A stretch of DNA of 38,339 bases, from contig JAJYIR010000014.1 of the NCBI GenBank assembly GCA_021789935.1, positions 1 through 38,339 on the forward strand, given 5' to 3'. Origin of the DNA: Nitrospirota bacterium. GTDB taxonomy: Bacteria > Nitrospirota > Thermodesulfovibrionia > Thermodesulfovibrionales > JdFR-88. The notes beneath the pieces were generated by a model. The model saw only the letters and a list, made by a program, of their open reading frames with translations, was not told the origin of the DNA and made no database searches. A program made the translations under genes and the position numbers. Below, in pieces: positions 29,054 through 33,112 of the stretch (positions within the stretch are counted from its first letter, which is position 1; each line of letters begins with the position of its first letter).

Positions 29054-31324
29054 TTACGAACAACGGGTGAACCCGCAGTTGTGGCAGACCGCGCAGCCGC
29101 CCTCATGCTCTACCGAACTCCCGCACTCAGGGCAGGCGCCTATGAGCATCGTCTCCTCATAAACATGCCCGTTGTCCTTTTTTTTGCCGTTGCCATTGCC
29201 GTTGCCTTCCGTATCTTTCATGTGGTACAGCTCCAGGGCCTTGGCTATTGCGTCCGAGCAGGAGAGGACCTTTCCGCCCGCCCCCCATACCTGCTGATGG
29301 CAGGAGATGCCCTTCATCTGTTTTATTATCTCTTCATGGCTTATGTTGGAGCGGAGCGCAAGGGATATGAGCCTGCCAAGCGCCTCCGACTGGCTCGCCG
29401 CGCAACCCCCGGCCTTCCCCATCGAAGTGAAGAGTTCGAAGAAATGGCCCTCGGCATCCTCGTTTATGGTCACATAGATGCGCCCGCAGCCTGTGTACAT
29501 GCGCCTCGTGGTGCCGCGCAGGGAATCGGGGCGTTTTCTCGGGGCGATCTTGGAGACCTCGGTCCTGGCCGGTTCGGCCACCGGCTCCTTTTTCCCGGTG
29601 GAGAGCACCTGTCCCTCCCGTGATCCGTCCCGGTAAACGGTGACGCCCTTGCAGCCGAGGCCGTATGCGAGCAGGTAAACGTCCTCGACATCTTTCCTTG
29701 AGGCCTCTTTGGGGAAGTTCACCGTCTTGGAGACGGCGTTGTCCACGTTCTGCTGGAAGGCCGCCTGCATGCGTATATGGCACTCCGGCGTGATGTCATG
29801 CGCAGTAACAAAGAGCTGCTTGACGTCTTTAGGTATCTCGTCGAAGCCGTGTATGCTGCCTGCCTCCGCGATGCGCTCCATAAGGTCCCGGGACCAAAAG
29901 CCGCGCTTTTTCGCCATCTCCTCGAAAAGGGGATTTACCTCTATGAGTTTTGTCCCCTCCATCACGTTTCTTACATAGCAGACGGCAAAGAGAGGCTCTA
30001 TGCCCGAGGAGCACCCGGCCAAGATGGAAAGAGTGCCCGTGGGGGCAATCGTGGTGACCGTGGCGTTCCTGACCGGGAACCCTTCCCTGGCGCTGCCCTT
30101 GTAGTTTGAAAAAACGCCCCGCTCCCCCGCAAGCAGATGGGACTCTTCCATGGCGTTGCGCCTTATGAAGCCCATGACCTCCTGGGCAAGTTCGAGGGCC
30201 TTGGGCGAGTCGTACGGAAGCCCCAGCTTGATGAGCATGTCGGCCCAACCCATGACGCCCAGGCCAATCTTCCTGTTCGCCTTGGTCATCTGCCCTATCT
30301 CTGGAAGGGGATATTTGTTCATTTCTATGACGTTGTCCAGAAAGTGGACCGCAAGGCGGACCGTACCGGCAAGCCCGTCCCAATCCACCTCGCCGTCTTT
30401 CACCATTAACGACAGGTTGATGGACCCCAGGTTGCAGGATTCATAAGGCAGGAGCGGCTGCTCTCCACACGGGTTAGTGCTTTCGATCGCCCCTATATGA
30501 GGGGTCGGGTTGGAATCGTTTATCCGGTCTATGAAAACAACGCCCGGCTCCCCATTGCCCCAGGCATGGTCCACAATGCTGTCGAACACCTCCCTGGCAC
30601 TGACCCTTTTTACGACCTTGTTCGTGCGCGGATTCACAAGATCATACTGCCCGTCTTCCTGGAGGGCGGTCATGAAGCCGTCGGTTATGGCCACCGAGAT
30701 ATTGAAGTTGTTCAGTTTCGTGTTTACGTCCTTGCACCCTATGAAGGAGAGGATGTCCGGGTGAGTAACGGAAAGCATTCCCATGTTCGCGCCCCTCCTG
30801 GTGCCGCCTTGCTTAACGGCCTCGGTGGCCGTGTCAAATACGGTCATGAAAGAGACAGGCCCGGAGGACACCCCTTTGGTGGAACCCACCACGTCCCCTC
30901 CCGGGCGGAGCCTGGAAAAGGAAAACCCCGTGCCGCCGCCGGATTTATGTATGATCGCCGCATTCTTTACGGCATCGAAAATGGACTCCATGGAGTCTGC
31001 CACAGGCAGAACGAAACAGGCTGAAAGCTGCCCCAGCCTCCTGCCGGCGTTCATGAGGGTGGGGCTGTTTGGCAGGAAGCGAAGCCCCGTCATCGCGCGG
31101 AAAAACTCCTCCGTCAGCGCGTCTACTTTCTCCTGCCCTGCCCCGTATTGCCTGTCCGCCCCGGCAATGAAACCGGCCACCCTGCGGAAGAGTTCCTCCG
31201 CGGTCTCCACCACGTCACCTTCCTCGTTTTTCTTCAGGTAGCGCTTTTCAAGGACTTTCAGCGCGTTCGGGGCAAGACCCAGCCCCGCATGATCGATACC
31301 GGCACTTTTAAAAGATGATTCCAT
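29054..31324 (-). CDS. nrdJ: Adenosylcobalamin-dependent (class II) ribonucleotide reductase NrdJ
   Basis: 756 residues. It makes deoxyribonucleotides using AdoCbl as radical source. Seen: FLPNSPTLMNAGRRLGQLSA with the following active-site Cys, the substrate loop NPCGEQPLLPYESCNLGSIN (radical Cys and conserved Glu), and ITTIAPTGTLSILAGCSSGI with the TIAPTGT block. The C-terminal part adds an RtpR/vitamin-B12-type domain (SEALGRLISLALRS) and a zinc finger CPECGSSVEHEGGCAVCHNC. A short N/G/K linker (~NGNGNGKKKDNG) precedes the finger. Oxygen-independent dNTP synthesis fits an anaerobe. The promoter overlaps an NrdR box; no cobalamin riboswitch was recognised. Confidence 0.97.
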   Translation of the reverse strand: MESSFKSAGIDHAGLGLAPNALKVLEKRYLKKNEEGDVVETAEELFRRVAGFIAGADRQYGAGQEKVDALTEEFFRAMTGLRFLPNSPTLMNAGRRLGQLSACFVLPVADSMESIFDAVKNAAIIHKSGGGTGFSFSRLRPGGDVVGSTKGVSSGPVSFMTVFDTATEAVKQGGTRRGANMGMLSVTHPDILSFIGCKDVNTKLNNFNISVAITDGFMTALQEDGQYDLVNPRTNKVVKRVSAREVFDSIVDHAWGNGEPGVVFIDRINDSNPTPHIGAIESTNPCGEQPLLPYESCNLGSINLSLMVKDGEVDWDGLAGTVRLAVHFLDNVIEMNKYPLPEIGQMTKANRKIGLGVMGWADMLIKLGLPYDSPKALELAQEVMGFIRRNAMEESHLLAGERGVFSNYKGSAREGFPVRNATVTTIAPTGTLSILAGCSSGIEPLFAVCYVRNVMEGTKLIEVNPLFEEMAKKRGFWSRDLMERIAEAGSIHGFDEIPKDVKQLFVTAHDITPECHIRMQAAFQQNVDNAVSKTVNFPKEASRKDVEDVYLLAYGLGCKGVTVYRDGSREGQVLSTGKKEPVAEPARTEVSKIAPRKRPDSLRGTTRRMYTGCGRIYVTINEDAEGHFFELFTSMGKAGGCAASQSEALGRLISLALRSNISHEEIIKQMKGISCHQQVWGAGGKVLSCSDAIAKALELYHMKDTEGNGNGNGKKKDNGHVYEETMLIGACPECGSSVEHEGGCAVCHNCGFTRCS

Positions 31325-31476: not shown

Positions 31477-31716
31477 GAGGGAAAATGATTTTTTTGAAAG
31501 CTCTTGTTTTAAAAGATTTTTTGCTGTGAAAAATGTGTTTGCGGATTGTGGAGGAAAAATAAAAAAAAGACTTGCATTGCGACATGGAGCTGATAGGATA
31601 AAATTACAAAGTTTTTCAAGCGGCCTGTTTAATAATTACTATGCTTTCTAAATTTAAAAAAATAAGATTATCTAAAGTTTTGCTTGACAGAGGCTTTTTA
31701 ATATGATAGTAAATAG
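31477..31716. other. AT-rich gap between the nrdJ promoter and the small RNA
   Basis: No coding frame. It contains TTGACA at 31684-31689 followed by weak -10 candidates (TAGTAA 31707-31712 at 17-nt spacing; TATGAT 31702-31707 with an upstream TTGCTT), which could drive the plus-strand small RNA. A second weaker pair is TTGCAT (31572-31577) with TAGGAT (31594-31599). Confidence 0.35.
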
Positions 31717-31786
31717 GTAGGCTCAATTAAGCGCCTCGTTACCTCCCCAAGCTTGCTGCTGTCCCCTGGACAGCAGCCTTTTTTTT
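31717..31786 (+). ncRNA. Candidate small RNA (~70 nt) with CUCCCC stretch
   Basis: A strong plus-strand terminator ends at 31786, yet no plus-strand gene lies upstream: nrdJ and the DUF362 gene are both on the minus strand. A TTGACA promoter would start transcription near 31714-31719. The predicted RNA can form a first stem (AGGTA with TACCT, inner GGC/GCC), leaves CTCCCC (31743-31748) single-stranded, complementary to Shine-Dalgarno sequences, then ends in the terminator hairpin whose loop region also reads TCCCC. Such C-rich loops are typical of sRNAs that block ribosome binding. Exact 5' end unknown. Confidence 0.4.
31755..31786 (+). terminator. Strong intrinsic terminator (plus strand)
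   Basis: Perfect 10-bp stem GCTGCTGTCC (31755-31764) and GGACAGCAGC (31768-31777) with a 3-nt loop, one C, then eight T (31779-31786). On the minus strand it has no T run, so the orientation is clear. Confidence 0.85.
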
Positions 31787-31880: not shown

Positions 31881-31928
31881 CAAAAACAAAAACAAAAACT
31901 GCCGTTTCCGGCTGCCCGCTCCGGGCAG
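31881..31928 (-). terminator. Terminator of the DUF362 operon
   Basis: Minus strand, just past the DUF362 stop: hairpin CTGCCCG/CGGGCAG (31928-31912, 3-nt loop), a second small hairpin GCCG-GAAA-CGGC (31912-31901), then AG and T5-G-T5-G-T5. It faces the small-RNA terminator, so the two transcripts end towards each other. Confidence 0.6.
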
Positions 31929-31936
31929 ATTCCCGG

Positions 31937-33112
31937 TCAGATCTGGATAAGCTCGTAATCCGTGGAGCCCAAGCCCAGTTTACGGGCGTAAGCTATCTGA
32001 ACGCGATAGTCTTTTTTATGCAGCTCAAGAAGGATATCGTCCCCCTGTTTGAGCCCCGCATCCGAGGCGGCGGAATCCGGCAGGGGAGAGCAGCCCTGAA
32101 GCATGTCTATGCTGGCCTTTTCTACGGCCACAAGATCATCGGAGACCAGTATGCCCTTGTCCTGCGCCACGGGCACATCCGCCCCAGGCATGCAGTCGCA
32201 TTCCGGCTGAATGCCCATAAGGAAATTTATGAAAATGACCTTCCCGGGTTTGAAGGTGCCCATCACCGCCTGCGCGGCCTCGGCCAGCGCCTGCATAAAC
32301 TGTTCCGGATCTGCCTCCTCATGCGTTATGGCATGGCCGGGGCAAACCCTGGTGCATCTGCCGCAACGCCAGCATCGCTCGTCCGCATATTGAAATTTTT
32401 TTTCCTTTTCCCCCTCCTTGCCGAAGCTTATGCATTCCAGCGGGCAGATATCTTCGCACTGGTAGCAGAGCTGGCATTTGTCTTCGTCCCAGAAAAGCCT
32501 GCCTTCCCCTATAGAGTGCATGGCCCCTCTGCCGCACCTCCAGCCGCAGCCCCGGTGCAATGCGCTTACCCCTCCCATCGCAAGGTTTTTTATCGCCCCC
32601 GCGTAGCCGGAGTTGATGTGGCCTTTTATGTGGCTGCATACCACCATACCCGGGGCGTCATGTATAAGGGAGGCCACCGCTATCTCGCCAAGGATATCAC
32701 CGGCCCTGACCAGTACGTTGTCCCTGCCGTAAAGCCCGTCCGCAAGGACGACCGGCGCGCCGACGGAAAGCTGGTTTATGCCGTTTCTGGTTGCGATATC
32801 AAGGTAATCGAGGCCGTTGATCCTCACCGTGTCCGTTACGAAGGGTTTTGCGCCGGCCCTCTTCAGGCCGGAAACGACCCCGGCCAGAAAGACAGGCCTT
32901 ATGATCCTGTGGGCCCCGACCGAGCCGAAATGGGTCTTTACTGCCACCCATTCATCTTTTTCAAAGCGTTCCGGCAGGCCCATCCGCTCCAGAAGGCGGT
33001 CCAGCTTGCCTGGAAGGCTCTCCTCCTGTTTCCATTTAAGCACCCTGGCAGAGGCAAAATAGACTTTTTTTGCGTTCTGTTTTCTTTTTTCTTCCGGGTT
33101 TTTTTTACTCAC
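31937..33112 (-). CDS. DUF362 protein with two 4Fe-4S clusters
   Basis: 391 residues. The DUF362 domain (VAVKTHFGSVGAHRIIRPVF, KPFVTDTVRI, HIKGHINSGYAGAIKNLAMG) is interrupted by a ferredoxin segment with CQLCYQCEDICP and CWRCGRCTRVCP, two 4Fe-4S motifs. DUF362 ferredoxins are common in anaerobes; their reactions are mostly unknown, though electron transfer is likely. The N-terminus is Lys-rich (SKKNPEEKRKQNAKK) and a KEGEKEKKF loop sits between the clusters. The GTG start overlaps the rsmI stop (GTGA). Last gene of the nadE-to-DUF362 unit. Confidence 0.9.
   Translation of the reverse strand: MSKKNPEEKRKQNAKKVYFASARVLKWKQEESLPGKLDRLLERMGLPERFEKDEWVAVKTHFGSVGAHRIIRPVFLAGVVSGLKRAGAKPFVTDTVRINGLDYLDIATRNGINQLSVGAPVVLADGLYGRDNVLVRAGDILGEIAVASLIHDAPGMVVCSHIKGHINSGYAGAIKNLAMGGVSALHRGCGWRCGRGAMHSIGEGRLFWDEDKCQLCYQCEDICPLECISFGKEGEKEKKFQYADERCWRCGRCTRVCPGHAITHEEADPEQFMQALAEAAQAVMGTFKPGKVIFINFLMGIQPECDCMPGADVPVAQDKGILVSDDLVAVEKASIDMLQGCSPLPDSAASDAGLKQGDDILLELHKKDYRVQIAYARKLGLGSTDYELIQI

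Follow-up and report, generated by a model that had tools for sequence, protein, structure and literature searches.

The window, which is the whole stretch of 38,339 nucleotides analysed here, carries a strong intrinsic terminator on the plus strand while the genes on both sides of it lie on the minus strand, and the question is which transcript this terminator ends. The first-pass annotation had proposed a small RNA with an anti-Shine-Dalgarno (anti-SD) loop beside nrdJ. The features on which the following analysis is based are:

31684-31689, plus strand: -35 box TTGACA, exact in the copies of relatives
31704-31705, plus strand: TG preceding the -10 box (extended -10 type)
31707-31712, plus strand: -10 box TAGTAA, at 17-bp spacing, aligned with relatives carrying TG-N-TATAAA
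31719-31786, plus strand: predicted sRNA of about 66 nt, its 5' end estimated at 7 nt past the -10 box
31730-31748, plus strand: conserved single-stranded core AGCGCCUCGUUACCUCCCC, with TCGTTACCTCCCC invariant in alignment A1
31741-31748, plus strand: anti-SD segment ACCUCCCC within the core, in the conserved linker before the stem
31755-31786, plus strand: intrinsic terminator, from its fold and stem covariation
31755-31764/31768-31777, plus strand: terminator stem of 10 pairs with a 3-nt loop
31779-31786, plus strand: U tract, eight T after a C
29054-31324, minus strand: nrdJ-type ribonucleotide reductase gene, divergent neighbour (Pfam, synteny)
31937-33112, minus strand: DUF362 (PF04015) 4Fe-4S protein gene, convergent 3' neighbour (Pfam, synteny)

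The unit is composed, in order, of TTGACA, 17 bp, TAGTAA, a short AT-rich stretch, the core, the 10-pair stem and C plus eight T. The TTGACA for which a promoter had been claimed lies 71 nt before the stem, and an exact TTGACA was found 30-46 nt before the core in 84/84 of the distinct standalone segments whose upstream part could be read. The -10 box of the window is weak and was not listed in a generic promoter scan, while many relatives carry a good extended -10 (TG-N-TATAAA); because it is conserved, the window promoter was taken as real despite this weakness. A longer transcript from a TTGCGA-N16-TAAAAT promoter at 31577 was rejected, as the fold of its 176 nt does not stand out from shuffles (z -0.78) and the matches of most relatives begin only at the TTGACA region.

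The terminator, described at first as strong and opposite to both neighbours, was confirmed as a plus-strand stem with a U tract, nrdJ and DUF362 both being on the minus strand. Folding of 73 nt gave z = -3.7, with 0/200 shuffles as good. Changes on both sides were found in 9/10 stem pairs, with 99.6% of pairs kept, and this covariation exceeded all 500 shuffles (0/500) and all slid controls. The predicted combination of an own sigma-70 promoter and an intrinsic terminator with a U tail is that of an Hfq-type trans-acting sRNA. A 5' hairpin (GGUAGGC/GCC..UACC) in the window was discarded, as relatives lack it. On the minus strand of the window, a second hairpin followed by TTTTTGTTTTTG was seen by eye at 31889-31920; it would terminate the DUF362 transcript before the sRNA is reached.

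Conservation is highest in the core, where TCGTTACCTCCCC is unchanged in 31/31 sequences of alignment A1, with variable loop and flanks; in family f3 a single A is lost inside the core. The core is complementary to an SD sequence plus spacer and start codon (GGGGAGGUAACGAG-AUG/GUG), and conservation reaches well past the SD part, into GCGCCUCGUU and the UAAGC linker. The anti-SD motif is unpaired and located upstream of the terminator, as in the alpha-R8 RNAs. For the window alone, when the 5' end is extended, the minimum free energy fold has part of ACCUCCCC paired to bases that precede the estimated start, in a helix that is not conserved. Two details had to be corrected: CUCCCC, said to be exposed twice, occurs only once (31743-31748), the supposed second copy being GUCCCCUGG, a non-conserved part of the terminator hairpin that is largely paired, and the motif sits in a single-stranded linker instead of a loop.

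A DNA search (BLAST) of the nearest genomes detected sRNA homologues in 32/61. The covariance search proposed in the first-pass annotation found the unit in 123/176 genomes of the order Thermodesulfovibrionales, usually in one copy; on the window, covariance model R2 matched 31727-31785 (66.9 bits, E 1.4e-15). One genome from a different order of the class gave a full-length strong match, and a sample of the phylum beyond the order yielded almost nothing further. The wider model R2 added no sRNA in family f9, which may, at a guess, be Thermodesulfovibrio itself. When 84,980 species were scanned with a pattern of the element, 61 stretches matched, found only in Nitrospirota: by record title, 60 are Nitrospirota, Nitrospirae, Nitrospira or Thermodesulfovibrionales/-vibrio, and the remaining one (CALGPO010000022, 'uncultured bacterium') matches a contig of G060 from the same order. 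Two IMG/VR pattern matches scored only 10.8 bits with the model and were therefore regarded as chance, so that a viral occurrence was dismissed. Two promoter-bearing copies per genome were seen in G178 (L136 and L137) and G354 (L134 and L135). Based on these comparisons, the predicted transcript represents a new sRNA family that is real as conserved sequence.

Upstream neighbours differ family by family, and DUF362 is the usual neighbour across the order: 81/~105 loci (some redundant) have a gene of the DUF362 cluster on their 3' side, in opposite orientation. The position beside nrdJ applies to the window but is incidental, conservation of this neighbour being limited to the window's family; regulation of nrdJ was rejected for the same reason. 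The DUF362 stop is often located just 55-65 nt from the core start, and the 3' ends of the two convergent transcripts could pair perfectly. The sRNA might then act mainly in cis on DUF362, through termination, RNase III processing or the use of DUF362 mRNA as an sRNA sponge. We consider this unlikely: cis-antisense pairing would not preserve an invariant core next to a drifting loop, and the window has a gap of 150 nt between the end of the sRNA and the DUF362 stop. Moreover, a minority of loci (e.g. L022, L043, L050, L061, L077 and L092) have the sRNA with its own promoter and no DUF362, and because promoter and core are kept there, the sRNA appears to be an autonomous gene.

Hfq is encoded in the window's genome, G000 (PF17209 match, E 2.2e-28). 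Across the 176 genomes, both sRNA and Hfq were found in 107, sRNA only in 16, Hfq only in 21 and neither in 32 (Fisher p 4e-10, without correction for kinship). Many of the 37/176 discordant genomes are incomplete MAGs, and 10/16 genomes with the sRNA only are below 90% complete. The co-occurrence follows clades: the sRNA is absent from all of family f9 and from most of genus g19 (family f2), as is Hfq in most of these genomes, which makes these clades a natural experiment for what replaces the pair. In family f8, 3/3 Hfq-less genomes have deviating sRNA copies, two without a proper U tract (G048, AACCCCTTTC; G057, TACCCCTTTT) and one with a shifted core (G039). Family f3 has weak U tracts even in genomes with Hfq. 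The deviating f8 copies and the co-occurrence fit an Hfq-dependent RNA, without being proof of it.

Candidate targets were found among start sites complementary to the core. A search of the window's genome for the 14-mer CTTGGGGAGGTAAC, allowing at most one mismatch, gave two sites: the sRNA gene itself and, on contig C13, the start of a gene for a rhodanese-domain lipoprotein, where perfect complementarity extends over 14 nt covering its SD. Orthologues of this gene in G004 and G007 keep CTTGGGGAGGTAAC (15 nt counting the preceding G) and G003 has it with one mismatch, while the sequence further upstream drifts. The sRNA was not detected in G004, and since the contig coordinates of G004 equal those of G007 these two genomes may not be independent. 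Immediately 5' of the GTG of YeeE/YedE sulfur transporters (PF04143), GGAGGTAACGAG was found in 7 genomes of 4 families; the gene of G006, from the window's family, carries GCTTAGGGGAGGT instead, which matches the other side of G006's own core and linker. Two 93% complete MAGs (G021 and G027) show the YeeE/YedE start-site match with no sRNA detected. Genes resembling sulfide:quinone reductase (SQR) have matches of 11-14 nt in 7/24 sRNA-positive genomes scored, and of at most 10 nt in 5 sRNA-negative genomes. The longest match among 423 background genes was 10 nt, reached by only two. Further start-site matches include two rhodaneses, two NMT1-type binding proteins, OsmC, a cytochrome c7 and a small two-CW-like protein.

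Target complementarity centres on the SD, where any strong ribosome-binding site supplies part of such a match, and shared ancestry inflates the recurrence of matches. The sulfur theme also represents no calibrated statistic, because the candidate families were picked after pattern searches. Sulfur-metabolism genes are named as the leading candidate targets on mechanistic logic, not as a proven regulon.

A core that is the complement of an ideal SD plus spacer could also serve as a general damper of translation, a decoy mimicking the 16S tail that binds SDs broadly and has no defined regulon. Start-site matches in PilT, PilC and GlmS (these named by eye), TctC and cytochrome c7 would agree with such a role. 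It is nevertheless rather improbable, even slightly more so than action in cis, in view of the conservation well beyond the SD part, the rarity of long exact matches (with at most one mismatch, the window's genome has a single one outside the sRNA gene) and their recurrence in the same gene families. That the element works on the minus strand, which reads as a strong SD (GGGGAGGUAACGAG), as the leader of a small protein with an incidental plus-strand promoter and terminator is hardly credible, since the SD is not followed by a conserved start codon or frame, and since the plus strand is the one indicated by the polarity of the terminator, by the U tract and by the conserved TTGACA.

A stand-alone sRNA with an anti-SD segment, as originally suggested, is the best reading of the locus, given the conserved promoter, core and covarying terminator in more than 120 genomes, the Hfq co-occurrence and the complementary start sites. 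The window element is probably the gene of a new family of Hfq-type trans-acting sRNAs that would block ribosome binding, with sulfur-metabolism genes as leading candidate targets. RNA polymerase would start at the TTGACA promoter and stop at the hairpin and U tract, and the 3' hairpin with its U tail could form the Hfq-binding module. The unpaired core 5'-GCGCCUCGUUACCUCCCC-3' would pair with the ribosome-binding sites (GGGGAGGUAACGAG plus start codon) of chosen mRNAs and thereby block their translation. Candidates for such mRNAs are the rhodanese-domain lipoprotein in the window's genome and the YeeE/YedE, SQR-like and other rhodanese genes in relatives.

Sibling copies of core and terminator were also found behind protein genes. 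In family f6, weaker model matches lie behind a gene for a small periplasmic protein of Metal_resist/Spy-like type, with core and terminator directly 3' of its stop codon (L133 and L239 in G354; L241 in G396; L231 in G279); a clear Pfam match was obtained for only one of these proteins (Metal_resist, slightly below its cut-off), and the others were grouped by eye. At L240 (G376) and L242 (G396), a protein of about 290 aa of unknown family is followed by the seed CCTCGTTACCTCC and a terminator. Each f6 sibling has a terminator of its own and contains CUCGUUACCUCC, in some cases as a near variant. In family f13 (L125-L132, L230 and L243), a repeated gene for a membrane protein of about 110 aa is followed by (GTT)ACCTCCCC and a terminator, these copies lying mostly at contig ends. 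The siblings look like candidate 3'UTR-derived RNAs sharing the seed.

Nitrospirota are important in sulfur and nitrogen cycling and mostly uncultured. A dedicated sulfur regulon of the Thermodesulfovibrionales under one sRNA, the seed of which is reused by 3'UTR-derived siblings (of the Spy-like envelope gene and other mRNAs), is a tentative idea that we regard as possible but doubtful; if true, it would represent an RNA network of an origin independent from the proteobacterial ones. Due to the order-wide spread, the strong signature, the tracking with Hfq and the concrete targets, RNA control of Nitrospirota sulfur metabolism can be put to a direct test, for which a heterologous E. coli reporter system is one option. 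With a covariance model of the family, annotation pipelines would also be able to detect its members.

Neither Rfam nor the open literature searched yielded a regulatory sRNA of Nitrospirota. The first-pass annotation recognised no known family, and Rfam likewise gave no accepted match for the window element at the gathering score. The best, sub-threshold match was RF00519 (suhB/MmgR, alpha-R8), which at 26.5 bits falls short of the gathering score of 41; 13/14 sRNA members scanned had no match to RF00519 at E up to 0.5. Membership was rejected on this score and on the lack of Alphaproteobacteria among the 61 stretches from 84,980 species; having failed the score test and belonging to another phylum, the sRNA was not filed under RF00519. 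It does resemble the alpha-R8 RNAs (MmgR of Sinorhizobium, SisA-D of Caulobacter) in being short, with a conserved anti-SD motif, an intrinsic terminator and a link to Hfq. The alpha-R8 RNAs are Hfq-associated, and SisA pairs with the start regions of many mRNAs (PMC12559287, PMC7143759). The sequences of core and terminator differ from those of this alphaproteobacterial family, and the likeness is probably convergent. An anti-SD seed and a proposed block of translation are also shared, by analogy, with the alpha-r14 RNA NfeR1, which carries CCUCCUCCC (PMC10746234), and with the AbcR sRNAs. NfeR1 is an Hfq-independent RNA of 123 nt with three hairpins, each with an unpaired seed, whereas the Nitrospirota sRNA would have one linear seed in about 66 nt. 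The f6 siblings behind the Spy-like gene resemble, in arrangement alone, CpxQ, the 3'UTR-derived sRNA of cpxP (PMC4817254); unlike CpxQ, the RNA of the window has a predicted promoter of its own, and only its siblings look 3'UTR-derived.
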